This document shows, in pieces, positions 1,394 to 61,215 of a DNA stretch of 64,000 nucleotides. Every line of letters begins with the position of its first letter. The first letter of the stretch is position 1. Location of the stretch: NCBI GenBank assembly GCA_031213475.1, contig JARUPZ010000008.1:12909393-12973392 (forward strand). Direction: 5' to 3'. The translations under genes and the position numbers were made by a program. The notes under the pieces are model-generated. The model did no database searches, was not told the DNA's origin, and saw nothing but the letters and a program-made list of their open reading frames with translations. This stretch comes from Nereocystis luetkeana. Taxonomy: Eukaryota; Sar; Phaeophyceae; Laminariales; Laminariaceae.

Positions 1394-1478
1394 ATGATGG
1401 TCCACGCCAGTTTACGTCAGTTGAGCCTCTTGATGCTGGTGCTGATGCTGCCACTGCTACCCACGATACTGGCGCAAG
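1394..1478 (+). CDS. Gene 1 exon 1: signal peptide
   Basis: The exon encodes 28 residues starting MMVHASLRQL, with a hydrophobic core LLMLVLMLPLLPTIL and a small-residue end LAQ, a textbook secretory signal. It ends in phase 1 (CAA G). The donor is GC rather than GT, in the context CAAG|GCAAGA, which matches the known GC-AG donor class. Joined to the A1 exon it gives LAQ-E-C. No in-frame GT donor at this position fits as well. Confidence 0.75.
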
Positions 1479-4400
1479 GCAAGAAATATGCACCCTTACC
1501 ACGCGTCCAGTGATTTTGAATGCTTCTGGGTGCTTTGGTTGGACCGTTGGTGTGATGTGTTCGAGCCACCGCGGCTCTTGCGACTCATAAACGGATCTTG
1601 CCCTTATTCACACAATAGGTGCTTTGCCTGGCTTGGACGACGACCGGTGCTCGAGTTTTGGTCATGATCCCTAGCTGGTGTTAATAGTGTTAATAGTGTT
1701 GTAGTACTACGGTCGCGGAGAGTAAGAACATCCTCTACGTCGTTGTGTCGCGTACACCCATGAAGGGTGGGCCATTCCTTCAGGCACACACGAAGGGGAG
1801 TAACCCTGAACTTCAACGGGGAACATTGGACTACAAAGAGAAACACCACACTAGAGTGTTCTGGGGTATCATCGCCCAACCCAGAATGAACAACGGACGA
1901 ATGGATGTCCCGCGTCCTCGGGCGCGCAGACATGGACAGTTCGAACCAGGTTTCGCCGAACACTGAACACGGCGAGGGTGGGATTGGAGGAGCTGTTGAG
2001 TCGAGCACCAAGTCTCGCCGGTGTCGTGGCGATCTGCTCAGAGTTTGCCGAGTGTTGGAAATCAAAATGTTCCATGTGTGTCTGCTGAAGTCTTGATGGA
2101 AAGAAAATACTCCGTAACGGGAGTTTGCGGTTTTGTCAAATAATAGGGATCTAAACGTCTCCGGCTCGCCCCGAGTCCTCACGCGGAATGTTGAGACAGC
2201 CATGACTACATATGACTACAGCGTTACGTTTGTTTCCTCAAGTAGAATCGGGCATAATGAGTACCCAGGATATATACATCCTGGGCTATATATTGTTGAT
2301 GACACACGTACCATCGACGCATTCTGCGATAGAGGTAGCACGCTTCCCGTAAGATGGTTTCTGAATGACAAAGCTCCTTCCCCCGAATCGTCGGAATGCT
2401 AAGACTGCTTCCAAAAGTGACTTCATTGTATACTTCGGGCTTTTCATCGATGATGCAATTTCATTTTTGCTGAAGGAAGTTTTCAGGTGAGGCGTGGAGC
2501 CCCTCAAAGGAGGAGCCTCAGAAACACGAGGGTGGAACTCTTTGTTAGAACACCTGCATCACTGACGTCCGCAGGAACTGTTGTCTTGGAGACTTGCCTT
2601 TTATCAACGGCCTGGCTTTGCGCTCAACCGATCAGCGTGCCGACTATTTGTTCAGGTTTTGAGTTTCGTCGAAATAATACAAAAATAATGCCCATGACGT
2701 TGCGTCAGATCTTGAAAATCAATGTCGCACCACTGTAGGTTATATGCCGAAACCGAGCCAACTTGAGTTGATATCTACTGTTCAGTGTTCTGTTTAACGT
2801 GCCTCACATTGCCTTCCCCTCCCGCTTCTGCCGGGGGCGGCCTCAGCGGGCTTGCATTGCGTCCTACGGACGACTGCTAGAAAGTTTGCGATGAAAACAT
2901 CTGTTCGGAATTCAAGCGTAAGCTCATACATACCGAAAGGCATCCGTCCATGGCACATTAGATTTGGGCTGGCTAAACACATCCGTTCGACATTCAGCAG
3001 GCCATCGCCAAGTTGAAGTCAATCACATTGAGTTTTTGGGGGGGGCTACGCACGTACGTACATGTGGCATGTATATGTGAATTTTCGCTACCACCATGTA
3101 TTGGCCACGCTGCTGATACCGGCTATTGACAACTTGAACAGGTTAAGCGGGAGGTGTACGAAAGTACAAGTTCTCATGTGGATAGACGTGGTGTTGCTGT
3201 TATGCGAACAACTGCTGGGTACCAACGGCAGCTTGACGTAGGACTAAGATGGGAGACGGCAGATAGACGGATGAGGGCGATACTCGTGCATACTATGAAC
3301 GTTTGAGTCGGCTTTTTTCATACTTCGTCGCGAGCTCTGTTGCACATTTCTTGGATTGATCTGCACATTGCGCTATTAATAGGCAACGAAACGCGTTCCG
3401 GATGGCAACTTTGTTCTGTTGCAGGTTCATCGATATGTTCTAAATATTTTTCTCCTTTCACTAAAACACGACTTATGCCCAACGTACCCGTTGACAGCAC
3501 TGTCAGATTAACGGCCTCGATTTTTCTACATCCTCGGTCAGGACGTGCGCGGAGTAAAGCCGGGCGTCAATCCGCCGTAGCGAAGCCCTCCATGTGCGAT
3601 AAATGTTAACATAATGCTCGTCAAGATGTCTTTTTCCAACATGAACGCAAAACGCGCTCAATATGGACACCGACAATTGTTCCGCATGCCCATATTTTTA
3701 CTGTGTCCACGCGTGTTTTTGCCCACCACGATACTGTGCCGTCTGTGGCAGAGTGCGACGCCAGCAACATCTGCCCGGACGCTTTGTGCTGCACGGGTGA
3801 TGGAGAGTGCTCACGTGAGTGGCGTATATAGAACCCCGCGTCGTCAAACCGTCCGCGAGAAGAATGATGCACAACACCACTTATCACGCAGTTGTCGGAT
3901 ATAGCCAGAATCATGGCTGACGGTATGACCATATGCCATTGGTAGTGCCTAATCATATTCGCTACGGGGGCCGGTGGCATGAGGAAAATAATCACATTGA
4001 TGGCACGGCAGTGCTAGGTTTTCATACCCGACAAGAAGGTAGAGGTGCTGCATTCTGCTAACGCCACCGCGCAGAATATCAGCACGAACACCGCAAAAAG
4101 AAACGACATCCCAACTCGATATGTCTGGTGTGAAATACAATGTATCAGTTTCCTGCGGATCGTGTAAATGCTCGTACCGCCGTACCGACCCGTCTCACGT
4201 CATGGTAACTTGATGGGGTGTGTTGCGTGCCTAAACAGACAGCGTTCATCAACTATCACAGCCAACATTACGTTTGAACGTTATCGTCCTGCGCATAGTT
4301 TTGATCACGTCGTAATCTCCACACGTGTGCCCTGCCCCAGAGAACAACGCGATGTCGGTGCCAGCGGGCGAAGATGCTCAAGACCCGTGTGAATGCGAGA

Positions 4401-7400
4401 GTGAGTCTCTCAGCGCTGTCGGCGAATGCGGTGAGTGGAGGTGACGGCGATACATGAGTGATTGGTGCAGACAAATTTAAGGACGGATTCCTCTTGCTCG
4501 TGAGTCGGCGAAGTGCACCACAGTGGGATCGGAATTCAGCCACGAACATGTTGGAACGTTCGCGTGGTGAAATGCGGGGTGGTCATATTAATCGTCGGAT
4601 CACCTGTCTGGTGAAGATTATTGTAGGAGTACGTACCCAGGTAGTGCATGCTCGCAACGTGTGCACGTCGAACGGTCACTGGAACGCACCTGTCACAAAC
4701 GTCTTGATGCGAAAAACATGATGTTTACATTTCTGTTCTGAACAACGTACTGGAACGCTATCTCAGTGACGCAGGCAATTCGCCGAGCGGTGGCGATCGC
4801 CTCCCCACGGTCAACTAGCCGCCTTTGGAGCAAGTCTGTTATAGTACTCATCGTCGCTAGCTGTAGCGGTGTGACGGTGTACCAGATATGCAATCGTCAG
4901 TGGGCTATTGCCCACGTACGACTCCTATACAGTCTTCAGCATATTCCTATCGGCGGAATATTTGCTTGACTCTGTTCTATTTTCTCTAGCGTTGACCTAG
5001 TATGCGACGCATGAGTACGTGGGTAACTACGGTGCCTTAATAGAAACCAGGGGTATAGATACTGCAACTATTTTTACTGTACGCGGTACTGGTAGGTATT
5101 AGGCAAGCCCCAATGACGCAGAGACCATAGTTTGATTTGTACGATCCACGGGTCATACCGCGGTGTGGCAGAATGCGAAGTATGACAGGTCTAGAACAGG
5201 AAAAGTGATTTGACAGCTGTGACACCTGTGGGCCGAAGAAAGATGCAGACAAGCAAATCCTCTAGGAGCAAGATGTATGCACTTTAGCTAGTTGTACTAG
5301 CGGCGGTCAATTGAGGGGGACGTAAAGCCCGGACATCAGGATGCTGATACTCGTGCACACAGTCAGCATCACACATCAATCGGTCGTAGTCATAGCTAGC
5401 GTATACTTGGTGCTAAACGTATTTATAAAAGCAATCTAAAACTATAGTAATGTAAACCAGTACAGAGTTATTCCGCATCTATGGCGAAGGGGACATACTC
5501 CAAAGACCCCAACCCTGGGTTTTTCATAGAAAGTGACCAGCTGTTTATCGCGAGTTCCAAAATGGGGGGCAAGTCACATTTACCTGCTCTGCGCGCAAGT
5601 GGTGTGCATCCTATCGTATGCCCTACATGTATTCGTGATAGACAGACAGCACATAATATTGTCTGTGGTCCATGCATTGCACAGAAAAGAAGACGGCGGA
5701 GCCCCCGTCGGGCCTCTCAGTTGATCAGTCAGATTTTCAGAAATGACATTCTAACACGGAAATGTTCGGGTGACAACGTATTTTGGACGAGAGGGGATAC
5801 GATAAAATTCGGCCCGAATCATATTTGGGTTCTTCATGGATGGACACCAATACCTGGTACACATCTCCACACATGCAAACCGAGTACGTCAATAACTCGC
5901 AACAGAGATCCGAGCGACATTCGTCGATACACAGCGTCGTACCCGAATCGCCACGATAGTCGTCGGAGGCAGAGCTAAACCAATGTGGTCGACAGCGGTG
6001 CTCTCGGTCGCCTCGCACGAGGGATGCTATTCCAAGCACTTTCCTGCGAAACTAGTGTGTACCATCAAGACTTTTCAGTCTTGCTTCTTCTACTATACGA
6101 TAGGACGCATAAACACCGGGCAGATCTGGCGCAATTATAGCTCTGCCCTTTTTACATTCCTAGCTTGAGAAGGCACCGAGAGAGGTAAACGTCTCGTTTT
6201 CTACAACCTCTGTTTGACAGCCGACAATGTGCCAGGTACCAAAAGGGTAAAAGCGTAACACGCGGCAGTTTCCAAGCACGTCACGACTTTCATACATCGG
6301 TGTTTGCCAGTAAATTCGTGTAAAAGAGAGGATACTACACCCGAGGTTGCGTTTGAGACACTAAACTCACATGAGTTTGATGGCGATAGCTACAGTACGC
6401 TGCTATCAATACGTCAGTAGTCAGTACTGTATCGTTTACTTCTATTGGGACATAGTCGCCTAATGATATAGTTTGTAGAATACAGCGTTCTGTAGGCTGA
6501 CATACCTAAATACTTTGTTCGCCATCCGGGATTAGGTTTTACTGTGCTGTTGAATACACACAACAGTAGCCGTACTCGATCGGTTCGACATACTCGTCCG
6601 ATGTACAAAGTAGTTATTACGGGGGACCATAGTTAATAGGATCTATGGTATACAGAAAAACCTGCAGATTTAACCATTTTCACAAACAACATTTGGTCCT
6701 ATTAAGTATGGTCCCCCGTAATAGTCGAATACAGCGTTCGGTAGGCTTGACATACCATACCAGATTGTTCGCCATGCTGGATTACGTGTTCCGGTTCGAA
6801 ACATGGTCGAGTCCCCAATCAGATTAAGGCGGAGAATCCCGAATATTTTCGTTCGAGTTTTCAGGTTAAGACATCCGGTGTCCGTAGCGCGGGGTTTCTC
6901 GGGGACGCAACACGCGTGTACACGCACACTCGCTCATTCGCTCTCTAACACTCTCCAGCATCTTATCCGCTTAGAGACCGCCGCCGATCAACAACGAAAC
7001 TGCCCATGAGGCGTCCTTTTTTCGTCAGCTCTGCAGGAACACACACAGCTCATGCCCGCATGCTGTACCAGGCGGGTGGCACCGATCGAGGTACTGACCT
7101 CTGCTCCGGTGGAAATTATGTCTGGCGCAACACAGCAAATGCCCATCACACATATACACCGGTATACGACGTGCCCCCAGCAAGTTGCATTTATTGCTCG
7201 CCAAGAGCCCATCGGCATGTTGAGCACTGAGGATGGAACGGTTCACGTCGCTATTATAGTCTCCTGTCGAGTTGTGCACATCTTATACCGGGGTATGTAT
7301 ATATAGATCCTCCTCAACGTCTATCGTGAGCAACTGCTGTGAACTACGCAATCAGTACCGTCTGTCCTCTAGCCGCCTTTTTCCGAACATGACTACACTG

Positions 7401-10400
7401 GGCTAACACAGTTCAACAAAAACGTTGGTTTTTGGTTGTGCCTAAATCCGCAGTCCCTCCCTACACATAGGGCGCACGATGTCGACACCAACACATACTT
7501 TCCCACACAAAACTCGTTTACTTCCTTTTGATATAATTTCATGCCTCTGCATGTGTCTGCCCGTGCTTTCGCGTACCGCACTACTCACAGAGTGCACTTC
7601 TGACCTGCATTGCCCGGAACCCACCTGCTGCATGGTGAACCGGGAGTGCTCATGTAAGTGTGGCATAGAAGCTCGCGTTCACACACCGTCTACGCGAGCA
7701 ATATGTCTTAAGACCCCCGGTAGCACTCGAGCAACTTTCTGACTCTGGAAAGACTTCGGAGCCACATCCTACGCCGGTTGCCACTCGTGATAGCGAGGTC
7801 TATCGGTGTCATGGTTACGTCAACCGACTTGATAGGATTGTGGAATGTTAGGGTTAGGAAAGAGTAGCATCACCCTGGACACGAGTCCTGGCGGAGTCAG
7901 AAGCTTGGCGATTTCATGACAACAGGTACCTGGTGGCCGCGACGACTCTTTGCAGGCGCACCACCTTGGGGGTCATTGTTTCGCGATTGAGCTCCACTAG
8001 CAGTTACACCCTATAGGTTGTGTTTGAGACATGTTTCAACGCCGAAGCATGTGTCTGGGTAGCCGAAGATTAGCAATGGAATTAATCGAAGACGCGGGCG
8101 CAAACAGGTTGGATATGGTGTTGGCATCTCCGCGCAGCGTTCGTGCTTGAGCTTGATAGGTTCACGTTGTGGTATGAGGTGCTTTGCATACAGCAGTATA
8201 CGCGCTGGAGTCTGGTATCATGGCAACTCCCTTGTATGAGATCTATTCACCTCCAGTAGATGTTGGTTCAGCGCCCAGACCAAACTAATGTTTCAACTAA
8301 ACGCTAAACGATACGGCGTGTTGCTTCGGAGACGTCACTGCGCAGACTCCCAAGCACGAACGCCGCTGCTACAAACATACCAGTATATATTTCCATTAGC
8401 TTTGTAGAGTATTCTTGGTCGGTTCCCTGCAGATCGTGTATAACATTGTACGGCCGTAACGTCCGTGTCTCGTCGTGACCAAGAGTCACGTAGCTATCTC
8501 GTAACCTTGCTACGTCAACGGGGCGGAACGAGATACATATTTCGCCTGGCTGAACGGTGTTTACCCACCGCCGCTGTGGTAAGAGTCATCCGCCTTAAGG
8601 TTTGAGAACGTCGAACCCCTCGCTTGTACCCTACCCAGCGAATGGCGTGAGCTCTGTGGGAGTGGGTGGGGATGCAGAGGACCAGTGCGAATGCGAGAGT
8701 GGAGCTCTCAGCGATGTCGGCGAATGTCGTGAGTGAGGGTGACGGAATTCTATCGGTGGTCGGTGCATATGAATTGTGGGAGGGGTGGATTTTGTTGTGA
8801 ACCTATTTTAACGCTATTTCAGCTTTTCATGCAGTTTGCCGAAGGGACGTGCTCATATTGATGCGGTAGGAAGCCTTTCAAGGCCATGCATTTTACTTCC
8901 AACCGACGCTAACGGCGACGTTTTGCCAGTGTATGTTATCGTCGGTAGGCCGTGGTCCGCTCGCGAGACCTGTACAGTTTTAGGTATATTCGAAAGCGGA
9001 CTATTTTCTTGGGACTGCCGATGACTCTCTAGTCGCTGACGAAGTAGAACAGCTGATGGTATAACTGTTCAAACTACCGACACGTCTAAAGTCGGGTGCT
9101 GTAGCTGTAGCTGTAACATACTACCACATAGAGGACCCGAGGCAACGTTATCAATCGTGTCGCTACAGTAGTCGCAGCTCTACTTACGGATTAAAACAAA
9201 CGTACAGCACACTATTAATATAGTGCGAGACTGCTTAGTTCAATTATGCTGCCATTGTAACGTTCCGGAGTGTGCTGTAGTCGTCGATAAGCGTTGACAG
9301 CAGATGCGGAGATGGTTCGAAGCCCTTAGTCCTCACCTAGGCGTACCCACTGCGGAGATGGTTCGAAGCCCTCACCTAGTCGTAACCACCGCTCGTTGGT
9401 CGCACTAGTATAGTGACGGTTTCGGCTGAGGGAGAAACGGTTTCATTTTGTCCAGAACGTCTAACTATCGGCACCCGGAGACATGACCCTACGAGCACGG
9501 CGTCGTAGTAATGTACAGTAGATAACTCCTTTGTTTTCTTGGATCTTGCCTTCGAGCTCGACGTGATCATCCATCGAACACCAAGCTCCAGCGATCACTC
9601 ATATCATCTGCTCTTGCTCTTGAGCGACAACGCTTCTAATCTATATCACCGAGCTAGGGTCCCGAGCACCACTTCGCCAGAGCGCACCATATCGCACAAT
9701 CCACGTACTAGCGGTTCGGGCACTCGACCTTTGTCGGCACCATCAACTAGCCACAAGCCAATTCACATGAACGGACACGGTCCGATTCGCACTGCTTCCA
9801 CAATTAATTGTCGTTCGGGTGTGCTTGACGGGGTGCGTTTGGTTTGTGACGTAGCTAACTACCAAGTTCGGAACCAGGGGTATTGATCATGCCAATACTG
9901 CTGTACTCTATAAGGTACGAAACAGGCAGAGCTTGCGCAAGGGTAGGTGTAACCCTAAGGGTGTGATGTTATCAAGGGTAGACGGGAACGTTTGCTTACT
10001 ACAGTAAATTTCCAAAGTACAGAATCATAGCCGACGATGGGTTCATGTGTCCAGGTCCTGGCGAGTTAAGCGACACACGGAGCAGTTTCCGATTCAAGCC
10101 ACGCCTTCCCTTCGCACGCGGTATTTATTTAATCAAGCTGTGGCAAATGAACCTGCCAGTACAGGTATACCTGAGGTTGCAGATTGGACACTAAAAACGC
10201 AAAAGGCCTGTTCCACTCGCCACGAGTCTGCACTCTGAGCGTTGAGGCCCCAACGAGATCGATGGTATTCTAAAACGGTCGAATCGTGCATATTTTTTAT
10301 CCGAGTGTACACGCCTGTGTCTAAAAGGTATGTGTTACCAGCTTTCATGGTCTATTCTGAACATTATCAGCACCTACTGTCAGTTCTCCACCCGTCCTTG

Positions 10401-13400
10401 TCTCAACGACTTGATCTTGAACTGGCCTTGACGGAGGTGTTAATAGTTTATTTTCGGTTTCGTCGAAACACACAGCAGAGCGTTCCGACGTGCACGATCT
10501 CGACACGAAAACACATTTTTCGACACGAAACCTGACTTTCTCTTTTTCGAATGTATCCCTTTCGCGCCGCTTGCTGACCCCCCGTGCTATCGCGCACCGC
10601 ACTATTGGTAGAATGTACCGCTGACGAACAGTGCCAGACCGGGTTATGCTGCATGGCCAACGGGGAGTGCTCATGTGAGTGGGGCGTAGATTCTCGCGTC
10701 GTCGTGCCGGTTACGCGAGCAGAAGCGGTAACTGGCCGCCCGACATCACACGAGCAGTTGTATTGCCCTTGTCAATGTTCGAGTCGCATGAAGGTAATAT
10801 TTTCCAAGAGTGATCACTAGGTGTAAGAGGGTCGTCGTCAGGCCTACCGAATGTATCGTGGTGCTAGAGTTGTAGGGCTGGGTAGAGGCAGCTCCAGCCA
10901 CAAAATATCAAAGTTGTGCCAGAACCCAGGAGACGCCGTGCGATCCGGTTGCCCGGAGGCCTCCGCTGCTGGGTCCCTACCTATGGCGCGTAGTCACGCA
11001 ATTCGGCTTGGGCTAAAAGCAACACCTTGATTGATGTTTTAATGCGAACGGCTGTGTCGGGGTCGTAAAAGATTGTCTGAGGAATCCACCACAACTGCGG
11101 GCGCAAAGTGCATCACGTTGTCCCTTCCACGGGCAGGGCTTACATTCGATGTGGTTTCGTTGTATTACGAGGTGGTATAGTTGAACGCATGTACGCTTCC
11201 AGTGCAGTGGCATACTGGCAGATACTTGCAGCTCCCTCAGCCAGAATGTATTCTCCTCTCGAACATGCTGATCATTTTCCCAGCCCTTCAGATCTGGCTG
11301 TCCGGAAGGTAGAAGCATGAGGCTTTGTTCACGTCAGTGCCCAGGACCTCAGCACGAACACTTCCGTAGGTAATATTCTATGTCCCTTCGCTTCGTCTCG
11401 TGTGGTTTATTCGATCACGGCTTCATGCGTTTCGTGTAAAGTATCGCACGGCCGTAACGACGTTCCCGAACCGTGGCCACCAGTCACGAGTAACAACCCA
11501 TCCAAAGACGGAAAGTTCGACAGGAGTGCTACGATGTGTACATATATACATATGTTTCCTGGGGCTGAAGGTGTTTGCCAACTGCTAGCGTAGCCAGCCT
11601 TACGTTTATAGCGCCGCATATTTGCCATGCATTATCTTCCGCCGCGAATTTTTACGAGCGCCGTAACGTTGTCGTGTGCCCTACCCCAGCGAGAAACGCG
11701 ATATCTGTACCAGTGGGTGAAGATGCAGACGACCAATGTGAATGCGCGAGCGGGCTTCTCAGTGGTGCCGGTGAATGCGGTGAGAGTGACGGCCATACTT
11801 CAGTAATCGATGCAGCCACATGTCAATAGGGGGGCATTTGGCTCGTACGTCATAAGAAAACACCACGATAGGATTGCAGAGGAACCGCAAACATGTTCGA
11901 AACGTCGCGTAGTGGCCTGAACGTCCAGGGTGAAGAAGGCCAAAATACTTGTTTAATGGAGATTGCTAGCAAATTATCCCCCCCTGACGGTGCATGCTCA
12001 TCAGGCGTTCGCGTTGAAACGCCATCGGAGCGTACCAGTCTCATGCACATTCTGTTGCAGTACTGTACGTGATACATATGCATTTGACATTGCTCGGGTT
12101 TGAACAGCGTCCTGCAACTCTACCCCATCGGAGAATGTAATTCGGCCAAGAGACGTGTTCGCTGTGACCTTGTTGACTACAATAGCCGCCTTTCAGGAAT
12201 TGTCTACTCAGTATCGTTGCTAGCGGCACCATTTTAACGACATATTATCGGTTGGCCACGCTCCGACTCACGAGTGCTGTACCGTCATCGGAACTCTTGG
12301 AGCCGGCAGACTGACAGTACATTCCATTGTCATTGCCCTATTCGCAGTCCCGTTGAAGCGAATATCCTACTGTAGGGGTGTCTTTGATAATGTGCCGTAT
12401 GTGTTTTTTGCGTACGAGAACATACAGAGAAGAAACCAGTGGTAACGATATACCTGGTAGCCACTATTAATAGTGCTGCCGTACCTTATACTAAAGGGTA
12501 TTCGCCATGAGATTGGTGCAAATGGCAGTAGTAGCGGTATACACAAGGTGGTGTCTGGGCACTACAAAATACCAATCTGATGTCTTGCTCGCTGCGAGTC
12601 CCCCCACAGTCTGTGCGTGGAGGCGTCAACGATCATTGCGTTATGGCTGCCTTCTCGAGTCAAACTGTGCAAAGCTTGCGCCCCGGTATGCCTCCGTGTC
12701 TGTAGATATTCGCCGAGCGCCATTGTGACCAGGTTCGCACATCATCCACACACGTGCTTCCCTTCGGCAAGTCGTTTCCCAAGGACATTCCATTGTGCTG
12801 ACCGGGAACAGTACATACTGTTCATGAGTTTTAGGTTTCGTCGAATTACGTACCAGGTAGCTCTTTTTTTAACGCCCACGATATCGACACCAACACATGC
12901 GTAAATATTTTGTAGATATCAAAAAATGACTCTATCTTACTCCCTTCCGCACGCTTTGCTTCTCTGTTTTCACGCGTGTTTGCATTACTTGATGTCGTGC
13001 ACCGCACACTTGACAGGGTGTAGTTCCGACGATAACTGTCCGGATGAGTCATGCTGCATGGCGGACGGGGAGTGCTCATGTGAGTGGCGTTGAAACTCCC
13101 GTGGTCAAACCGTTTTCGCCAGCATGGGCATGAAAGAGAAGCCCGACATCAAAAACGCAGTTACGTTTGAATCTTTATGCAAGGGTTTCCCACGCTACTA
13201 TTGAAAACGTGCGTATGTATCTTTCTGCCACGTAGGCTCCAAAACCAACATATTTTGTTGCTTAGGCGATGCCGACCATCACCCCCGGATGCCACCTCCT
13301 AGTTGTTGGCCATTGCGCGTTATCGTAAATACCCCCCTTCGCCTAAGTTTTACCTCGTTATGCGCCGCCCGTGTTGACCTTGTTGACTTTCACTGCTTCC

Positions 13401-23299: not shown

Positions 23300-23304
23300 C
23301 AGGG

Positions 23305-42451: not shown

Positions 42452-42797
42452 TTCGGCGTAACAGGGCATTGCTAAGATAGGCGCCGAGAGGCCCAGCAGA
42501 CGCTGGATTGATGCCGAACAAGGGAGGTTGCCTTGAAAAGAATTGCCAGGGAGGCTGACATGCGGAGCAAAGATAGGCTCCACGCCAAGCTGTCAGTCCC
42601 CTTAAACATAGAGGACGAGAATGAGAAATATCCTGGGGAACACGCCTCCATGACGTCGAACCTCAGACGGAAGGAAGTGCGGGTGTAAGCACAAGTTTTT
42701 CCCTGGCCAAGAGCAGTCTAAATACTCTGAGACCCGCCTCACGTCCTCAACACCGGGCCTGTCGAGCTACGGAAGCGAGGGAAGAAGCTAGCATGGA
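42452..42797 (+). repeat. LTR-like direct repeat, right copy
   Basis: Same-orientation match of 37908-38258. It lies 340 bp after the integrase tail, the place of a 3' LTR in a Ty3/gypsy element. TG...CA ends were not evident. Confidence 0.72.
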
Positions 42798-42992
42798 TCT
42801 GTGTTACAGCTGCCTCCTCTTGTGTGCCGCTATCGGCTCGTTCTCACCTCGATAGCCAGCTGGTGCCGTTCGTTGAGAGAGTCCTCATGGGGATTTCCTC
42901 CGTACCTCGCTCCTAAATCCTCTCTGGCCACGGCGGTGGCCAGACGCCACGAGAGTTGAGTGTTGGTATTGCTCAGCGAATGCGACGTGTGA

Positions 42993-43455
42993 TTAACAGA
43001 TAGGCACGTGATAGGCGATAATCATGCACGGTGTGTGAACAGGATATGGTTTGACTTGTTTCTTTCGTTCTTTGGTGGGATTGACTAACCCCAGGTAGGG
43101 CCAGAGAGCACCCGTATCGACCATTACAGCCGATACGGGGTTTCCATGACCCAGACACTGGCCTCGCCCGCCGGGGACACTCCATTGTATACCTACATCG
43201 ATATGACAGCGAGCCATCCTACGGCTTTATCGCTGCCTTACACGATGCACCCTCCGTGCGTCACTGGTCAGGTCAGTCAACGTACATCACAGAATACCCT
43301 GTCGCCCATCTGGGCGACTCCTGAAGCCCGTAGCGCTGCAACATCAGCTGCCCTTCAACCAGCACCTGGGGGCCAACATGGCCGCAGGCCAGACCAGTTC
43401 CGCAGAAGTGACAGGTGTGGTGAACGCAAACGAAGAATGGGCTCACGGAGGCCAC
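42993..43455 (-). pseudogene. Gag zinc-knuckle and aspartic protease remnant
   Basis: The minus strand first reads VHHTCHFCGTGLACGHVGPQ, a damaged CCHC-type knuckle. About 200 bp on it reads GNPVSAVMVDTGALWPYLGL; DTGA with its hydrophobic flanks is the retroviral-type aspartic protease active site. Frames differ and the polymerase part is absent. It belongs to a different, opposite-strand element from the integrase at 41 kb. Confidence 0.4.
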
Positions 43456-47829: not shown

Positions 47830-47894
47830 TCAGCGGGTTTCCTCGGTAAAGCTTCCCAACGCAAATTCCATCCCCAGAGGACCTTCGACTGAGT
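47830..47894 (-). CDS. Gene 2 exon E: last codons of the GDPH domain plus stop
   Basis: After acceptor CGACCAACAG the exon reads, with the split codon, YSVEGPLGMEFALGS then FTEETR and TGA. Gene 1 stops six codons earlier. The phase fits the exon D donor; the intron is 1435 nt. Confidence 0.8.
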
Positions 47895-50800: not shown

Positions 50801-53800
50801 GTCAATCCGTGTGCAGAGTGGGCCTCCTTTCCTTCGGACGTGAAGGGATTCAGTACGGGTTATTCGGTCACGGAAACAAGTCTCGCTATACTGCTGGACA
50901 GCTCTGGCCGTATCGCACAGTATCGAAGATGGAGAAGGGAGAGCCTACCATAACAAAGTTTATGAACCACGTTCGAGAGGAGCTTTCACCAGTGACTCAA
51001 GGCGAGTATAATGTGTTGCAGGCAACCTTTCACTGCGCTCTGAGATCGCCATTGATATGTGGCAGTTTCGAGTGCCTGGCCTAACCCGCACTCAAGATAC
51101 GGGTTAGGGAGGACTGCACCTTAGCGCTGGACTTTCCAATCTAATAGTGTATTTTCGTTTTAACGCACGTACGGGGAAGGTGTGTACTAGCGGAAACCGG
51201 CAAACTCCGTCGCCGAAAACGTTTAGCCGAGTGTCCACGAGTTGGATGGCACTTGATACTGTACACGCTGACGAGTTTGGACTTCGAACGTGCTCATGAG
51301 CGACCACAAACCAGCAACGTCGTAAACGTAAGGAACCCTGTAAATACACGTGAGCACCTTATCAAAAGTTGAAAACGAAATCAGCTGCGTCTCTGTTTCG
51401 CGACAGCAAGAATGGACCCAAAATAAAAGGCGTCATTACTACTAGTTGGGGTCCATATCTGTACCGCTGTTTATAGAGTACTCATCTACGTCCTCACTTG
51501 TGCCTTTGGGTTACTGCGGCAGTACTACAGTGATGGAGAGTTAGTGTGTCCTAACTATGCTCAGTAGGTGTGTACACTGCAGTACCAGTAAATATAAGTT
51601 GATGCACTCCAGCAGGCAGTCTCAAAGGTTGACGCTTAGAGGTCCACTGGAGCCAGCTACATCGTTTACACGGACATCAGTAGTGTTGGTGCACGATGTA
51701 CGGAGAGTACATTATGTATTGATGAGCGTCATTTGTTTTACTTGGGCACCGCCTATTTCCTTCACTACATGTGAGGACTATCCGTGAGGAAAGAGAGCCG
51801 GGAGTCGTAGGCTTTGAACTCGGTTGGTAACTATCCAGCCGTCTAATGCTGGGCACGGCCTACAAACCTTGGCCAACCTGGTACTACTATAGCTCACTGT
51901 TCGAACAGCTTACCTAGGCACTTCAAGTAGTAGATGAAAGTAGGATGAGCTCGAAATGCGAATGATCAAACGGCTCAAGAGGAGCGCGTTGCCTCAGTCA
52001 TCTGCCTTAACCAGTATTCATGACTGTGATTGCGTCACGGAATGCTGGACAGAACTGTAAATGTTTCCACATGCCTTGTGTTGTTATCCAGACGGGTGTA
52101 CTTATAACTGATACAGTCAGATGTGCTTCAACGTGTAGATGACCATCAATTGTTCGGGTCGACAATTCGAAGGCTTATTCAGGAAGGGAAGGTGCTTCGG
52201 CCCAAACTACCCCGAACCCTTGGGCCGCCACAAGACCATCCGGATATGCTTGAACATGCTTTGCAATTCCATCGTAGAGCACTTGATCGACTCACAAGAA
52301 GATCGACTCCTCCAAAGATTAATGTGCGCCAACCTCCGACATCCCGCCGACACCTGCACTCACCGCATATGCCCTCGTCGCTGAGACGGTTATCCCTGCA
52401 TTCACATACGTCGGTTGCCATCCCGCCCGGTAACACGGAGTCCTCATCAAGCGCTACACAAACACGCAGGGAGAGACGTTTCGACTGTCTCAGCACGGGA
52501 TGCCGACAGACAAGTGGTAGTATACACATGTTGGTTCAACCTAGCGATCGGCTAAATACTGCTGACAATATCCGGCAACCGCAGGTCGGGCTGACCCCCG
52601 TTGTATATCATGTTCCACCGCCTTGACATCCTGCGGGGAAGGTTCGAATGTGACTCGTGGCCCCTACCAGGAACCGTCATTGCGGCATGCGGGGGTTAAC
52701 CGTATTTGTGAATAACCAACTCTATAGATGTGTTCGTACCGACGTTACATTCCCAGTGACGAGACCAAAGCCTGGCGCCACCATCTTCAGGGCAACAGGT
52801 AAGTATCAAGGTCTAGAAGTACACTTGATGGGGTTAGTTTCCCAATGGTATTGGTCGACCTAGCGACAAACGATTTGAACATGCCAGCGTCCTCTGGCTA
52901 GAACGTCAATAAAACTTATGGTCCCATCGAACAAATAATTGTGTCATATCCGGTGTCTACACTACTTCTTTTCCCGCGGATACGGTTTGACGACGCGGCC
53001 GTCCACGACACACTCACTTGAGCACACCCCGGCATCCGTGCAGCACTTGATGTCCGGGCAGTCCGAGTTGAAAACGCACTCTGTCGCACCCCATCACGGT
53101 AGGCAGAGACGCGGGCGGAGAGAGGCAAACAGTGTCTGGGTATGCCTGAATGGCGCTGTCGATAGTTTTAGTTACGGTTGTATGGGGCCTACTACTCTCG
53201 TATCCTTATTTCAACCATATCCAAGTCAACAGCATCGCGAATACAATAATGTCATGCCAAGACGTAGCAAGTTTTACACATGCTGACGAAAATCCAGTCC
53301 TCTAATGTGGGGCACGGCCTAACAAACATGGCCTACTTTGTGCAAGAACACTGTTCGAACGGCGAAGCTAGACACTACGAACACTAGATAAACGTAATTC
53401 ACGCTTGAATTTGCGGATAAGCAAAAGAGCACGATGCTTCGGTGATGTGCCTTTACAAGTGCTCATCGTTGGAATTGCGCATAGCACGCCCTACAGAAAT
53501 ATAAAAAGTTCCTCACAAGCGTTTTGGTGTTATCCAAACTTGGGTGCTTGTAACTGGTGCATTTAGATGCGCTTCAACATGTACGTCGGATGATCATGCG
53601 CTGTTTGGGCCGAAGTTTTAAAGCTTCACCAGGAACGTGCTCCGGCCCAATTGCCCTGAACGTTTTATCCGCCACAAAAGCTTCCGGATATGCTCGCAGA
53701 TGCATCGTATTCCCATCGTGATGCACTCTGTGGACTCTCAGTAAAGATACGTATCCAGCACTATGTCTGCGCCAATCTCCGATATCTCACCGTCACCCGC

Positions 53801-56800
53801 ACTCACCGCACATGCCCTCATCGCTGAGACGGTTATCCCTGCATTCACATGCGTCGGTTGCCATCCCGCCTGGTAACACGGAGTCCTCATCAAGCGCTAC
53901 ACAAACACGCAGGGAGAAACGTTTCGACTGTCTCAGCACGGGATTCCGACAGAGAAGTGGTAGTATACACATGTCGGTTCAACCTAGCGATCGGCTAAAT
54001 ACTGCTGACAATATCCGGCAACCGCAGGTCGGGCTGACCCCCGTTGTATATCATGTTCCACCGCCTTGACATCCTGCGGGGAAGGTTCGAATGTGACTCG
54101 TGGCCCCTGCCAGGAACCGTCATTGCGGCATGCGGGGGTTAACCGTATTTGTGAATAACCAACTCTATAGATGTGTTCGTACCGACGTTATATTCCCAGT
54201 GACGAGACCAAAGCCTGGCGCCACCATCTTCAGGGCAACAGGTAAGTATCAAGATCTAGAAGTACCCTTGATGGGGTTAGTTTCCCAATGGTATTGGTCG
54301 ACCTAGCGACAACGATTAGAACAGGCCAGCGCCCTCTGGCTAGAACGTCAAAAAAACTTATGGTCCCATCGAACAAATAATTGTGTCATATCCGGTGTCT
54401 ACACTACTTCTTTTCCCGCGGATACGGTTTGACGACGCGGCCGTCCACGACACACTCACTTGAGCACACCCCGGCATCCGTGCAGCACTTGATGTCCGGG
54501 CAGTCCGAGTTGAAAACGCACTCTGTCGCACCCCATCACGGTAGGCAGCGACGCGGGCGGAGAGAGGCAAACAGTGTCTGGGTATGCCTGAATGGCGCTG
54601 TCGATAGTTTTAGTTACGGTTGTATGGGGCCTACTACTCTCGTATCCTTATTTCAACCATACCCAGGTCAACAGCATCGCGAATACAATAATGTCATGCC
54701 AAGACGTAGCAAGTTTTACACGTGCTGACGAAAATCCAGTCCTCTAATGTGGGGCACGGCCTAACAAACATGGCCTACCTTGTGCAAGAACACTGTTCGA
54801 ACGGCCAAGCTAGACACTACGAACACTAGAAAAACGTAATTCACGCTTGAATTTGCGGATACGCAGAAGAGCACGATGCTTCGGTGATGTGCCTTTACCA
54901 GTGCTCATAGTTGGAATCGCGCATAGCACGCTCTACAGAAATATAAAACGTTCCTCACAAGCGTTCTGGTGTTATCCAAACTTGGGTGCTTGTAACTGGT
55001 GCATTTAGATGCGCTTCAACATGTACATCGGATGATCATGCGCTGTTTGGGCCGAAGTTTTAAAGCTTCACCAGGAATGTGCTACGGCCCAATTGCCCTG
55101 AATGTTTTATCCGCCACAAGAGCTTCCGGATATGCTCGCAGATGCATCGTATTCCCATCGTGATGCACTATGTGGACTCTCAGCAAAGATACGTATCCAG
55201 CACTAGGTCTGCGCCGATCTCCGATATCTCACCGTCACCCGCACTCACCGCATATGCCCTCATCGCTTAGACGGTTATCCCTGCATTCACATGCGTCGGT
55301 TGCCAACCCGCCCGGTAACACGGAGTCCTCATCAAGCGCTACATAAACACGCAGGGAGAAACGTTTCGACTGTCTCAGCACGGGATTCCGACAGATAAGG
55401 GGTAGTATACATATATCGGTTCAACCTAGGGATCGGCTAAATACTGCTGACAATATCCGGCAACCGCAGGTCGGGCTGACCCCCGTTGTATATCATGTTC
55501 CACCGCCTTGACATCCTGCGGGGAAGTTTCGAATGTGACTCGTGGCCCCTGCCAGGAACCGTCATTGCGGCATGCGGGGGTTAACCGTATTTGTGAATAA
55601 CCAACTCTATAGATGTGTTCGTACCGACGTTATATTCCCAGTGACGAGATCAAAGCCTGGCGCCACCATCTTCAGGGCAACAGGTAAGTATCAAGATCTA
55701 GAAGTACCCTTGATGGGGTTAGTTTCCCAATGGTGTTGGTCGACCTAGCGACAACGATTTGAACAGGCCAGCGCCCTCTGGCTGGAACGTCAATAAAACC
55801 TATGGTCCCATCGAACAAATAATTGTGTCATATCCGGTGTCTACACTACTTCTTTTCCCGCGGATACGGTTTGACGACGCGGCCGTCCACGACACACTCA
55901 CTTGAGCACACCCCGGCATCCGTGCAGCACTTGATGTCCGGGCAGTCCGAGTTGAAAACGCACTCTGTCGCACCCCATCACGGTAGGCAGAGACGCGGGC
56001 GGAGAGAGGCAAACAGTGTCTGGGTATGCCTGAATGGCGCTGTCGATAGTTTTAGTTACGGTTGTATGGGGCCTACTACTCTCGTATCCTTATTTCAACC
56101 ATACCCAAGTCAACAGCATCGCGAATACAATAATGTCATGCCAAGACGTAGCAAGTTTTACACATGCTGACGAAAATCCAGTCCTCTAATGTGGGGCACG
56201 GCCTAACAAACATGGCCTACTTTGTGCAAGAACACTGTTCGAACGGCGAAGCTAGACACTACGAACACTAGATAAACGTAATTCACGCTTGAATTTGCGG
56301 ATAAGCAAAAGAGCACGATGCTTCGGTGATGTGCCTTTACAAGTGCTCATCGTTGGAATTGCGCATAGCACGCCCTACAGAAATATAAAAAGTTCCTCAC
56401 AAGCGTTTTGGTGTTATCCAAACTTGGGTGCTTGTAACTGGTGCATTTAGATGCGCTTCAACATGTACGTCGGATGATCATGCGCTGTTTGGGCCGAAGT
56501 TTTAAAGCTTCACCAGGAACGTGCTCCGGCCCAATTGCCCTGAACGTTTTATCCGCCACAAGAGCTTCCGGATATGCTCGCAGATGCATCGTATTCCCAT
56601 CGTGATGCACTCTGTGGACTCTCAGCAAAGATACGTATCCAGCACTAGGTCTGCGCCAATCTCCGATATCTCACCGTCACCCGCACTCACCGCACATGCC
56701 CTCATCGCTTAGACGGTTATCCCTGCATTCACATGCGTCGGTTGCCAACCCGCCCGGTAACACGGAGTCCTCATCAAGCGCTACAAAAAAACGCACGGAA

Positions 56801-59800
56801 AAACGTTTCGACTGTCTCAGCACGGAATGCCCAGAGACGAAAATTGACAAACGTGTGTTGAAAATGAACGTTGACTGTATACCCTTCGAGAGTAGTTTAC
56901 CAAGCACGGTTCAGGCACGCTAGCCAAAATTCTCGTCCAACGTCCTTGCTACCAGGTATAGTTTGCAGGGAAGGAGGGTGGGGGGATATTATCGATTGGA
57001 AAGATGTACTCGATCTCATGCAAGGCCGTAATCGTATGACTATAGGCCCTCCCATCCCAAAATTTCCTGTACGGGGTTTCACCGACCAGACAGACACTGC
57101 TTGCACCAAGCGAGAATCGCCGTGAGGTGTCCGGCGAGTGATCTCAAGGGTACCCCTAAGAACCGCTTGTGAGGCGGACTTGCATATGGATTACAGCTTC
57201 AATGAGGTAATTTATTTTCCAGCGTCGCCACTATGCATCTGCCTCGTGGGTGCCTTGCCATGAACTCTACCTGGTACGTGATACGATCCAATCCCTTTTT
57301 CGGAGTAAACGTTCTGACTAGACCACCCGCACAAACGATTTGACTCGACCACCCGCACAAACGATTTGACTCGACCACCCGCACAAACGATTTGACTAGA
57401 CCACCCGCTTCACGCGACAACCAAAACCCAAAACCTAAACAAAACCTGTACCCTGGGCGTCTAGCTGACGTGGTGAGCGGCATTTGTTTCAGGGTCGTTG
57501 CCAACAGACGCAAACCCAACCTACAGTATATATAATGGGTGCGGGGGGACTGCTAAATGTGGCGTGTGTCGACGCTCCGGAAATATCAAGCCCAGACGGG
57601 GGTATGTACCATCTGCAATGATACATCACCAGAACACGCGAACGGCGAGTTGAATGTTATCGTAGAGGTGTGCGTGTTGAGGTTTTGCACAGTGACGTGA
57701 AGGAAGCCTCCGGGCCCCTATGTTGTGGGTGAATATCCTAATGTAACGCTCCTATTCCCGAAGTCGATTTCCCGATGGCATTGATACACCTCACTGCCAC
57801 GATACCTACGACTACAAGTCTGGCCCTAGCGAACAACTGCTCGCTTTATATCCGTCGTGGTGTATATGAGCCCTAGGCTCGCCGAATAGGTTTGTCGACG
57901 CTCGCTTGCACGCCACACTCACTTGAGCACTGCCCGTTCGCCATGCAGCACTTGGTTTCCGGGCAGTCCGAGTTGAAAACACACTCTGGCACATTATGGT
58001 AGGCAAACATACGCGTGGAAGGAGGCAAGCAATGGTCAGGATGTGTTCCTAATAGTTTGTCCCGGGAGTATCTACGAAATTCGAAGAAATCAAAACCCGA
58101 AAAAGTATGTGTATTCTGTCATTTCAGCGCGGGACAAAGCCTACGTAAATGGCCATCTTCGAAACAGCAGCTAATGCTGACGTTCAGGGATGGTCATGAT
58201 GGTTGCAATCGATGAGACAATGGTAGACCCGTAACCATTTCGGCCTCAGCGTTGATCCTCCGGACTCGTGGCGTGGCCAGCAGAACACGGCAGGTACAAT
58301 TTTCCGTCGATGCGCAAACACCAAAAACTTGAGCTAACCGGGTATACATCGTGTGCTTTCACCTCCTGAAATTTCTTTGGGAACTGTCGAGTGTGTCCCT
58401 TACTTTCATCAGGCCAGGATACCTAAACCAACCGACGTGTGTCACCTGAGCTTGCAAGATACCCCCTACCGGCGAAAACTACTGATGAAACATATTTAGG
58501 GTTGCTTGCTTTTGGTGTACGACGTCGGTACCCTGCGATACGAGGGGGAGAATCAATGTTGGTAATTTGTACGCCATGGTATACTTTACTGCAAGGATAT
58601 TAAGTTCTCAATCTTCGCCGGTATAATAGTGGATTTATCGAATCACCCTGAATGTTCGGTCCACCACACGACCATTGAGCACGTTTACGCCTGTATTCAA
58701 CTGATAATGAGGCGCACTCAGCCGACTCTCGAGCAAAACGCACCACCCTTCAAAGAAATTTGACACCGTAAGCGACATCTCGGTGTCACACTCACTCACC
58801 GCATAAGTCATTATCGCCTAGACTGTTGTCCCTGCATTCACAAGCATCGTCTGCAGCCCCGCCTGGTAGCACTGACTCCTCGTCAAGCGCTGGAGCACAC
58901 ACAGAACAACATCACGACAGTTTCCACCCCGTATGTCCGAAGATATCAGACTGCAAGCACATTGTTGTGCCAATGGAATGTTGGCTGTACACAGGCATTG
59001 GCAAACAGTCTTTTCTGCGGGGGCTTGCTAGTTGTAACTAGGGTCCACAGCCGGCAAACATCACTGAGGCCGGGAGAAGGGTTTCACAATCTACAAAAAG
59101 CCAACACCAGGGCAAGCGAGAACGAGTAGGGATATCTTAATTCATCGGTGTTCGTACGGGGGCTCTGCGTAGAGACATCAACGGAGCCTTGAAGTCCTAA
59201 CGTCCGGGTGAGCATCCAAGTATAACACTGTCGTCGTTTTTTATTTGGCACTGCCACCGATGAGATTGATTTCCCTATTTAGTGAACTGATTAACCTGGC
59301 GATTACGACTGCTAATGGTCAATGCCATGTCACGGACACGTCGGCCAAAATTCTGGCCCGATTCAACCCCTGCTAGTGTCGTATCCGGTGTCTACATCCC
59401 AATTTTGATTTCGCGCAAACGGTTCAATGACGCTCGCTTGCACGCCACACTCACTTGAGCACTGCCCGTTCGCCATGCAGCACTTGTTTTCCAGGCAGTC
59501 CGAGTTGAAAACACACTCTGCCACAATGCACACCATTATGTGGGGGTTAACCTTGATCCCCAGCGGCCACACTGAGCACACACCTATGATGTCACCACCT
59601 GAGTTTGCTTTTATCATGCATCGGATGCGTTCTCCCGTCTGTCTTGCCTCCCTCCGCGTTGAATTTTGCTACTATTGATACTGATGCTGCATGTGCATGT
59701 ATGTCGAACAAATAGTCTGATGTCAGGGTACTCGTGGCTATGAATAGCTGCTGCTCTACATTTGTTGCTTTGTTCTTGTCTCAATACTTCTGAAAAGCAA

Positions 59801-61215
59801 GACCTGTCGTTCGACAATTCATAGGATCGTTTTGGGGAGTCATGTGCAATGAGTATCACGTACAAGGGCTACGCATGGGTGGCGGCGTTCACCCGCACCC
59901 ATATTTCGCACACTCAGTGTCGATTCGGGCTTGAAAAACGGTGTTATACAACGCTATGCCTCAATTCAAGGGTTCTCGACAAACAAAACCCGAACTACAC
60001 ACCTCTCAAGTGTTAAACTAAACGTACCAGTGCGTTGGGATATTTGGACGTCACTACGAAAATCGAAATGTTGGGCTATTTGTACTTTACTTGGTTCTAG
60101 TAGTTTCCTGTCCGAGTCTCCGAAAAAAGTAGTGGGAGTGTCGAGATTGGCTTTGGTCGTGACTCCAATCGTGTAAATACACCGGTGTGTTTGCTGTGTC
60201 TCACACTACACCAGATGGGTGCCAACACGTTGGAAGATATAATACTGACTGGTATCTTGTACCTGGCCTAGAGTACTTCAGAGACGCACTGAAGTCTCAG
60301 CACATTACGAAACACAGTGCAGACACTCTCATCACAACCTGCGTTTCATGTTGGACAGACTCTTGCACGATCAGTGGCAGGAGCAAGGTCTGCACTACCG
60401 CAGTGCAGGTCTCGCAACTTCGTCGCCGTTGTAGAAAGTGAAAAATCATTTCCCAAAAGAGAGACGCAACACGACGCCCCTCTGCGCTTACTACGCTTAC
60501 ATTCATTTTTCTCGACTTCAATTTCACGCCGGTCATCACGACAAAACTATTGTACCAGGTATGCAGTTTTCATGGTATGCTAAACTATATGGACGTAAAC
60601 ATCAATTACAACAATAATGGTATATCTTGCACTGCTTCCTCACTGCTTCCCCCTCATTCTGGAGCATGCCTTCTGTCGACGTTTCCACCATTTGGCATTG
60701 CCGTCCACCCCCCTACACACGGCCGTGAATAATCGCCATGGTGATACCTTCCAAGCAACCTCTCAACGCCTCGAATCCTTCGCCCCTTTCCGCCTCATAC
60801 GTACTGGCGACAGCCGGCACCGTCCTCTATAAATCAATTGCCTCTTTTAACGTTGTCAATGTGTGAGTACGTACACACCCCGAAACGAATAATACTTATT
60901 CCGTTGTACCGGAGAAACGCTGACAATTTATTTTATTTTTCTTCGCCTTACTAGTTAGGGGGATCAATCCAGCATGCGCTATGAGCGCAAAGGAGATGGG
61001 TTTGCGCTCCTTCTCAAGGGCATGTCCCACTGGGAATGACACCTCGAATATTCTTCGTTCGGACATTCTATCAGTTTGCGAGTGTACATACCTCTATTAC
61101 TGCATTCGAATGAGAGGGTCCGTCGAACGGGCAGTGCTATTTGCTGAGCTGCTATTGCGAAGAGTAATACTTGGATGGTCATGTTTAGGCCGCGAGTTGT
61201 GTTTGGAACAAGCAT
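47830..61215 (-). CDS. Gene 2: paralogue of gene 1, secreted A-B module protein with GDPH domain, 14 exons
   Basis: Read on the minus strand: 61215 (or 61182)-61092, 59517-59455, 58889-58800, 57985-57923, 56780-56691, 55964-55902, 55338-55249, 54522-54460, 53896-53807, 53080-53018, 52453-52364, 50582-50484, 50181-49330, 47894-47830. The join is in frame and gives 634 residues from the upstream Met or 623 from the second. The exon count and every internal exon length equal those of gene 1, and all introns are phase 1. Modules read ECVFNSDCP-type (A) and LDEDSVLPGG-type (B), clearly different from gene 1, whereas the GDPH exon is nearly identical. Role: a putative extracellular or wall-associated cysteine-rich protein of unknown function. 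Four of the module exon sets sit in a 1442-bp tandem repeat. Gene 2 converges on gene 1 with 27 kb between their stops. Confidence 0.82.
49330..50181 (-). CDS. Gene 2 exon D: body of GDPH (vWD/root-cap-like) domain
   Basis: This is an 852-nt exon, exactly the length of gene 1 exon D and near-identical to it. The only protein changes I see are Met/Ile in the DPSS-x-HV region, Gly/Asp in VCPT-x-VSP, Ile/Val in EW-x-LADP, Val/Ala in GET-x-VPT, His/Gln and Asp/Glu in the VIM-x-GM-x-SIRG region. The donor is GACT|GTGAGT. The frame would run on to a stop at 49301 (ELGHEFIV), but this tail is unlike the gene 1 read-through tail, which supports splicing. Confidence 0.85.
50484..50582 (-). CDS. Gene 2 exon C
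   Basis: This 99-nt exon starts after CTTTCAG and reads CITDDNCDGGQICCPKTNTC then EDEPADGNLGAC, donor GTAAGC. It is clearly the counterpart of gene 1 exon C but differs at roughly 15 of 99 positions, much more than exon D does. Confidence 0.8.
52364..53080 (-). CDS. Gene 2 cassette 5 (exons A5' 53080-53018, B5' 52453-52364)
   Basis: A5' is identical in protein to A3' and A4'. B5' carries LPGGMATDVCECRDNRLSDE, with Val before the first Cys of C-x-C. Sequence 3' of B5' (below about 52360) is the most diverged edge of the tandem array. Confidence 0.83.
53807..54522 (-). CDS. Gene 2 cassette 4 (exons A4' 54522-54460, B4' 53896-53807)
   Basis: Same A protein as A3' (CVFNSDCPDIKCCTDAGVCS). B4' carries LPGGMATDACECRDNRLSDE with Met instead of Leu. 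Exons and introns lie one 1442-bp unit away from cassette 3. Confidence 0.83.
55249..55964 (-). CDS. Gene 2 cassette 3 (exons A3' 55964-55902, B3' 55338-55249)
   Basis: A3' starts after GCGACAG and reads CVFNSDCPDIKCCTDAGVCS, donor GTGAGT. B3' starts after a TAG acceptor, carries LPGGLATDACECRDNRLSDE, and ends IC before GTGAGT. The A exon is identical in protein to A4' and A5'. Confidence 0.83.
56691..57985 (-). CDS. Gene 2 cassette 2 (exons A2' 57985-57923, B2' 56780-56691)
   Basis: A2' starts after TGTGCCAG and reads CVFNSDCPETKCCMANGQCS, donor GTGAGT. B2' carries LPGGLATDACECRDNRLSDE, donor GTGAGT. B2' belongs to the 1442-bp tandem array and A2' does not, so this cassette spans the array edge. 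The 1142-nt intron between them contains a dispersed R3 element with a 26-bp minisatellite. Confidence 0.82.
56975..57530 (+). repeat. Dispersed repeat R3, full copy 3 (in gene 2 intron)
   Basis: Matches 31203-31745 end to end: ATGTACTCGATCTCATG, CGACCAGACAGACACTGCTT, GCGGACTTGCATATGGATTA, CAAACCCAACCTA. Inserted in the intron between B2' and A2'. It has gained an internal 26-bp minisatellite absent from copy 1. Confidence 0.8.
57313..57410 (+). repeat. 26-bp minisatellite within R3
   Basis: The unit CGACCACCCGCACAAACGAT plus TTGACT is repeated about 3.5 times with G/A changes only at the joint (CTAGACC/CTCGACC). Confidence 0.88.
58800..59517 (-). CDS. Gene 2 cassette 1 (exons A1' 59517-59455, B1' 58889-58800)
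   Basis: A1' starts after TGTGGCAG and reads CVFNSDCLENKCCMANGQCS, donor GTGAGT. B1' starts after GTGCTCCAG and carries LPGGAADDACECRDN and a final Cys, donor GTGAGT. Lengths are 63 and 90 nt. With A2' it is the older, non-tandem part of the gene 2 array; its MANGQCS ending is like MANGECS in gene 1. Confidence 0.82.
61092..61215 (-). CDS. Gene 2 exon 1: signal peptide
   Basis: Two in-frame Met codons: 61215 (MLVPNTTRGLN...) and 61182 (MTIQVLLFAIAAQQIA...). The second gives a cleaner secretory signal, so I prefer it, but the longer form also works. The exon ends in phase 1 before donor GTATGT (AGAG|GTATGTAC). Joined to A1' it gives FECSNR-E-C. Confidence 0.65.

Follow-up and report, generated by a model that had tools for sequence, protein, structure and literature searches.

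A facing pair of cassette-built genes with a predicted VWD-fold domain in the kelp Nereocystis luetkeana

A 64,000-nucleotide stretch of the genome of the kelp Nereocystis luetkeana (contig JARUPZ010000008.1, positions 12,909,393 to 12,973,392; the whole of it is here called the window) carries two genes on opposite strands, gene 1 (+) and gene 2 (-), whose 3′ ends face each other. Each gene has five copies of an A exon of 63 nt and of a B exon of 90 nt, followed by single exons C (99 nt) and D (852 nt) and a short last exon E, and the domain encoded by D starts with a Gly-Asp-Pro-His (GDPH) motif and is predicted to adopt the VWD fold. We consider it probable that the pair encodes modular proteins, rich in disulfides and secreted to the brown-algal cell surface or extracellular matrix, with a VWD end that would be cleaved, cassettes that duplicate and a D exon that undergoes conversion between the two genes.

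Exon anatomy of the gene pair

A preliminary description of the window, made from its letters, had proposed a tail-to-tail pair of 14-exon genes with the above exon lengths and with all introns in phase 1. The exon search was carried out on both strands for cysteine-rich segments, open in phase 1, that measure 63, 90 or 99 nt and are bounded by AG and GT, and it recovered the claimed A, B and C exons, among other matches. Together with the splice check it bore out the lengths, the orientation and the phase: in both genes an AG acceptor stands on all A-to-E exons, a GT donor follows exons A to D (24 of the 24 needing one), all borders are in phase 1, and none of the 26 exons contains an internal stop. 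A strict scan of the window for motif plus splice sites found ten A and ten B exons, all in phase 1 (phases 0 and 2 gave none); the same scan of dinucleotide-shuffled controls (n = 40, phase 1 only) returned no A or B exon. When the A/B pattern was searched in six frames and splice sites were ignored, the 20 known exons were obtained along with one stop-containing cysteine run in a CAG repeat (62152-62208), and no orphan A/B-pattern cassette was seen in the window.

The A exon encodes 21 residues with five cysteines and the B exon 30 residues with three, giving a 51-residue A+B module with the eight cysteines that had been proposed. The E exons, of 47 nt in gene 1 and 65 nt in gene 2, were located using homologue tails as probes; in both, the split codon reads Tyr and is followed by SVEGPLG, and the encoded tail after D is 15-21 residues long. 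The joined exons of gene 1 give a 615-residue protein with a signal-like start, judged by hydropathy and not by a signal-peptide program, and those of gene 2 give 593 residues from A1 onward. The exons are listed below; A, B and C exons come from the exon search and splice check, and other sources are given in brackets.

1394..1478, +, gene 1 signal-type exon, 85 nt, ending in phase 1 with a GC donor, MMVHASLRQLSLLMLVLMLPLLPTILAQ (highest hydropathy among the gene 1 candidates scanned)
3752..3814, +, gene 1 exon A1 (63 nt)
4341..4430, +, gene 1 exon B1 (90 nt)
7591..7653, +, gene 1 exon A2
8639..8728, +, gene 1 exon B2
10612..10674, +, gene 1 exon A3
11690..11779, +, gene 1 exon B3
13017..13079, +, gene 1 exon A4
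14612..14701, +, gene 1 exon B4
15562..15624, +, gene 1 exon A5
16506..16595, +, gene 1 exon B5
18488..18586, +, gene 1 exon C (99 nt), an A-like cysteine module directly before GDPH
18821..19672, +, gene 1 exon D (852 nt), predicted VWD-fold domain with GDPH at its start (splice check and structure prediction)
20777..20823, +, gene 1 exon E with stop, YSVEGPLGVEFSLDS (homologue-tail probes; like the tails in homologues)
47830..47894, -, gene 2 exon E with stop, YSVEGPLGMEFALGSFTEETR (homologue-tail probes)
49330..50181, -, gene 2 exon D (852 nt; splice check)
50484..50582, -, gene 2 exon C (99 nt)
52364..52453, -, gene 2 exon B5
53018..53080, -, gene 2 exon A5
53807..53896, -, gene 2 exon B4
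54460..54522, -, gene 2 exon A4
55249..55338, -, gene 2 exon B3
55902..55964, -, gene 2 exon A3
56691..56780, -, gene 2 exon B2
57923..57985, -, gene 2 exon A2
58800..58889, -, gene 2 exon B1
59455..59517, -, gene 2 exon A1
61092..61215, -, gene 2 first exon of the preliminary description, a weak candidate without supporting similarity

Of the 28 exons proposed, 27 stand: all 14 in gene 1, where the first intron has a GC donor (AAG/GCAAG) in place of GT, and 13 in gene 2, whose first exon is unproven. The gene 2 start at 61215 was set aside, its hydrophobic stretch being only mediocre, and blastn of this start region against the regions before gene 1 and before a paralogue on contig C25 gave no supporting similarity. 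A continuation of D as an open reading frame without exon E (CELGHEFIV in gene 2, and likewise in the homologue P0001) was judged to be intron read-through, because both genes, and 7 of the 10 stretches from paralogues, have an in-phase E exon of the Y-x-VEGPLG type further downstream.

Domain D, its motif and its family

The predicted structure of D has the beta-sandwich fold of VWD domains. D also matched an FCGBP profile, with GDPH in the same place, and a wide Z gap lay between VWD and the next folds; the VIA-align lists leave room for families other than VWD. We file D as a predicted remote VWD-fold domain and not as a member of the Pfam VWD family. The C8, TIL and E domains of the VWF/mucin D assembly are absent after D, where only the exon E tail was found, and the Pfam root-cap model was unmatched among the 18 members scanned. 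Viral relatives of D were also considered; of 26 pattern stretches in viral contigs none was confirmed, and the best viral fold matches were weak.

Where VWD domains carry GDPH, the motif is known as a site of self-cleavage (PMC10880436). Here the Gly codon of the motif is split by the intron between C and D, and the exon border and the expected Asp-Pro cut lie within two residues of each other. The motif opens the domain, its Asp and His conserved, in the D of both genes and in 92 of 94 homologous proteins, and a cysteine precedes it in 76 of those 92. The preliminary description knew of no family with this layout. That holds insofar as neither D nor the A/B modules are covered by a model in Pfam or NCBIfam; GDPH itself is no orphan motif, as it is published elsewhere and sits here in a predicted VWD fold.

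Searching proteins with D returned 175 matches from 1,205 candidates. Of the 120 matches listed most have no stated organism; those named (Ectocarpus, Undaria, Scytosiphon, Hapterophycus and Laminaria) are all brown algae, which agrees with the stramenopile setting suggested earlier; one match labelled as a bacterial metagenome-assembled genome was taken for contamination. With the full gene 1 protein as query, 72 of the 7,996 sequences scored were matches. The D region of a long homologue, in a search that depends on shared 5-residue words, gave 36 of 4,756 candidates, and those with a stated organism were again all brown algal. GDPH followed by M or L occurs in 93 of 174 family proteins, and in 78 of the 93 it lies 280-330 residues from the end; exceptions to this C-terminal position include P0151 and P0152, in which the sequence continues past D. 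A CC-type cysteine module like exon C directly precedes the motif in 63 of the 73 GDPH proteins whose part ahead of it exceeds 40 residues, and the ten without it include two Undaria subtilases and the WSC protein. The subtilases, P0172 and P0173, have a C-terminal D with a GDPHLVG variant, and their D domains are 93.7% alike.

Various domains stand ahead of D in the family. From the precomputed Pfam accessions we take these to be metallopeptidase, subtilase, leucine-rich repeat (LRR), CAP, LPMO-type, right-handed beta-helix, WSC and others. Our Pfam scan of seven proteins confirmed CAP in P0067 and found LNR below the cut-off in P0099. By pattern, true A/B modules were seen only in Undaria P0005 and P0006 and in P0008, other pattern matches being LNR-like by eye. 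P0008 has A-like, B, C, D and E parts in one 405-residue open reading frame on a 1,796-nt contig, and its length suggests that it is a spliced transcript. In Undaria the consecutively numbered models g07598-g07600 of HiC_scaffold_16 resemble the pair, with A/B modules ahead of D in g07599 and g07600, whose D domains are 90.8% alike against 50% for one compared module pair; they differ in B modules of 31 residues, and the models look incomplete (g07598 is part of D only). Conservation of A and B in relatives, named beforehand as a test of the model, was thus found in Undaria proteins as well as in the own-genome paralogues.

The own genome was searched over 465 Mb in 1,987 contigs, and D gave 121 matches out of 133 candidates. 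Near-complete copies numbered 84 (at least 270 of 284 residues), with identities from 100% down to 29% and in-frame stops in four; contigs C339 and C982 look like duplicates of other contigs. A large second group at about 40% identity and a third at 32-34% lie on contigs C28, C15, C17, C4, C24 and C39, in part clustered. In distant copies GDPH is replaced by DDPH (L023, L024), EDPH (L027), GEPH (L031) or GGSY (L026), and such copies may be non-cleaving. The cassettes were followed at ten D loci, and A and/or B exons were present at five: C25 (six A/B pairs and a C, the upstream end lying beyond the stretch reached), C23 (three pairs), C4 (two pairs and a C) and two neighbouring C26 loci (one A and two B at one; two B, with no A seen, at the other). 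Exon A is 63 nt throughout, B is 90 or 93 nt (one ambiguous at 93/96) and C, where seen, 96-102 nt. At C17, C3, C21 and two C9 loci no A/B exon was recognised in the sequence retrieved, which may be too short; the C17 locus has a C-type exon. The two C26 D genes (8697425 and 8705388) lie 8 kb apart with equal scores and identical B exon sequences, suggesting that the whole locus was duplicated in tandem very recently.

The brown-algal family behind the pair is apparently undescribed, as far as the libraries and text searches used can tell; no description was found in the literature within the search terms used. A report on brown-algal PR-1/CAP proteins names WSC, lectin and CBM partners, and the C-D-E block is unmentioned in the part of it available (PMC12879055).

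Change in the cassette arrays and the D exon

Two tracts of change were recognised in the window.

51833..56838, -, recent tandem array in gene 2 with a unit of about 1,442 bp (B-intron-A-intron) (self-similarity)
18750..19740, no strand, approximate gene-conversion tract on the gene 1 side, with its counterpart at about 49260-50250 in gene 2 (identity profile in 100-nt steps)

The B-to-A units of gene 2 recur every 1,442-1,443 bp, introns included, and the array is 92.6% self-identical over 3,572 columns and 89.8% over 2,132; the first copy against the last gives only 72% over 688. Silent differences per site (dS) in the coding parts of units 3-5 are 0.064-0.066, compared with 0.21-0.91 within gene 1. 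The regular spacing and the low dS indicate that gene 2 reached five units recently. The equal exon counts of the two genes are not evidence of an old, fixed architecture, given the recent origin of units 3-5 and the six, three and two pairs found at C25, C23 and C4.

Strong divergence of the modules had also been noted. The genes are not uniformly diverged, and D is the exception, where 11 of 852 nt differ (dS 0.026; amino-acid changes per site, dN, 0.009) beside a C exon with 16 of 99 nt different (dS 0.64) and beside diverged E exons and introns. On both sides of D an identity of 97-100% gives way, over some 100 bp, to about 45-70%. As the sharp step also runs in introns, it is, at the sequence level, the signature of gene conversion rather than selection homogenising D between the facing genes. 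The preliminary observation stands in substance, and its reading needs three corrections, namely the recent growth of the gene 2 array, the conversion of D and the VWD-type fold.

The front and back parts of the genes have different histories. The modules of gene 2 are 70% identical to those of C25 and 58% to those of gene 1, the first split codon of each module being filled with G in these comparisons as in the module tree and the dN/dS estimates, which fixes one residue per module. C and D are 84% and 98.7% identical between genes 1 and 2, against 76-83% with C25. The modules thus ally gene 2 with C25, and C and D ally it with gene 1. Since the module tree has two strong branches of 19 (support for gene 2 with C25 is 92/95 and for the gene 1 group 84/91), plain identity was relied on instead.

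Elsewhere in the window, a 349-codon open frame (62005-63054, +) contains a CAG run (62147-62250) and an in-frame 87-bp repeat of 2.9 copies (62607-62860), and was unmatched in Pfam at E up to 0.01. Between the genes, open frames at 41059-42111 (+) resemble a retroelement integrase end by eye, with only a sub-threshold HSA match in Pfam, and a 24-bp repeat of 6.2 copies occupies 39123-39272.

Proposed role, rival readings and known systems

We propose that each protein runs from a signal peptide (gene 1 only, by hydropathy) through five eight-cysteine modules and the C module to a C-terminal VWD-fold D with the E tail. Because every intron is in phase 1, an A+B unit or the whole C-D-E block could be inserted, deleted or moved without damage to the frame. 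Cassettes increase through tandem duplication of exon-plus-intron units, and the VWD exon has been made alike in the facing genes via gene conversion. The most likely biochemistry is that GDPH cleaves itself at the Asp-Pro bond, as happens in FCGBP and further VWD proteins. Two chains would result, the shuffled-exon part and D-E, probably still tethered by a disulfide through the cysteine before GDPH. In such a molecule the cassettes may serve for spacing or binding, with the VWD part as a common module for matrix or assembly. The signal-like start, the cysteine modules, the partner domains of C-D-E and, by analogy, the adhesive roles proposed for diatom vWD/GDPH proteins all suggest a place in the matrix or at the surface.

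A wider version, which we offer tentatively and hold to be possible though doubtful, makes C-D-E a general brown-algal adaptor: a self-cleaving VWD domain with an exon border at its cleavage motif, to which exon shuffling could couple any set of secreted phase-1 modules (cysteine cassettes, proteases, LRRs, CAP, LPMO-like), for display on the matrix or release from it by Asp-Pro autocleavage. Array length would be set by tandem duplication, and the adaptor kept uniform by gene conversion. If the reading of the family holds, brown algae, with their independent complex multicellularity, would have a large VWD-fold family of their own, built by phase-1 exon shuffling. Such shuffling is known for animal matrix proteins.

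Several results weigh against the proposal of cleaved, VWD-ended matrix proteins. Pfam VWD was unmatched by D at E up to 10 (cut-offs 1, 5 and 10), the fold alignment spans 148 of 284 residues at 10-18% identity, Foldseek alone was weak (best E 7.7e-3), and single FCGBP repeats reached no better than E 0.5, ranging up to 24, with 1,100 for a sixth piece. The models place a helical stretch inside D at about residues 137-193, and the strand before GDPH, the first of D, was not seen in them; the A/B part was predicted at low confidence, with blocks mostly below 50 in pLDDT (the per-residue confidence score). Nor is GDPH universal: ten distant own-genome copies have GDPH in five, DDPH in two, and EDPH, GEPH and GGSY in one each. 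By register, Thr16 takes the position of the glutamine that aids cleavage in FCGBP D10, where loss of the glutamine had a partial effect. For gene 2 no first exon is established, and the model was built from genomic DNA of this species.

It is rather unlikely, in our view, that the arrays are recognition repertoires, that is, secreted or surface immune receptors or decoys in which module number and sequence change fast. The frame-symmetric repeat exons, the recent growth in gene 2, the differing module sets and numbers among paralogues and the discordant front and back histories would suit it, as would the high amino-acid change between the genes (mean dN 0.59 and dS 0.76; dN > dS in 11 of 25 module pairs); a precedent has been proposed for the shuffled LRR exons of brown-algal ROCO genes (PMC11378527). 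Within genes, however, dN exceeds dS in only 0 of 10 pairs (gene 1) and 1 of 10 (gene 2), the ROCO exons are of another kind, and the Pfam scan of gene 1 matched neither a receptor nor a signalling domain. The dN pattern of the modules would fit relaxed or diversifying selection. We give little credence to a VWD carrier that bears the modules as small inhibitors or antimicrobial peptides rich in disulfides: the short exons (21 residues with five cysteines, 30 with three) and the protease domains on several D homologues invite the idea, but no inhibitor or defensin family was matched in Pfam and the module fold is without a confident prediction.

That D is a convergent beta-sandwich nearer to another family, such as the land-plant root-cap domain that we presume it to resemble, seems similarly improbable to us; the low identity to VWD and the missing Pfam match speak for it, and the wide Z gap, the position of GDPH and the FCGBP profile match against it. 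It is hardly credible that the genes are decayed or an artefact of the gene model. One non-GT donor in gene 1 and the lack of a first exon for gene 2 would fit, but all 26 A-to-E exons are internally stop-free with proper acceptors and donors, the chance scan gave zero, and D has fewer amino-acid changes per site than silent ones.

The kelp genes resemble the exon-shuffled ROCO (LRR) and NB-ARC-TPR genes of the same lineage in having tandem, frame-symmetric repeat exons multiplied within genes. They differ in that the ROCO GTPases have 72-bp phase 2 LRR exons and the kelp genes 63- plus 90-bp phase 1 cysteine cassettes (PMC11378527, as far as its text was available, where the term gene conversion does not occur); LRR or ROC was unmatched in gene 1 in the Pfam scan. 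With the GDPH-VWD domains of animals (FCGBP, MUC2, MUC5AC, RGMB and MUC4), D shares its predicted fold and the placing of GDPH at the start, immediately preceded by a cysteine in most relatives and with a small cysteine-rich module in front, whereas the kelp D is brown-algal, 10-18% identical, carries the extra internal helical stretch and is followed by a tail of only 15-21 residues in place of C8 or TIL.

A published parallel is found in diatom adhesive proteins, for which a GDPH domain has already been reported (PMC7335047, PMC8027222). Those of Seminavis robusta are likewise secreted stramenopile proteins with GDPH, co-occurrence of vWD and a large tandem-enriched family; cassette exons are not mentioned in the available parts of these papers, and the likeness is one of description. 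Among the 36 matches of the word-based D-region search no diatom sequence was recognised, and the diatom Nitzschia inconspicua is reported, in the part of the source available, without the GDPH pattern (PMC8329260). If homology between the two groups can be shown, the label "diatom-specific" given to GDPH proteins in the available text of PMC7335047 would be called into question.
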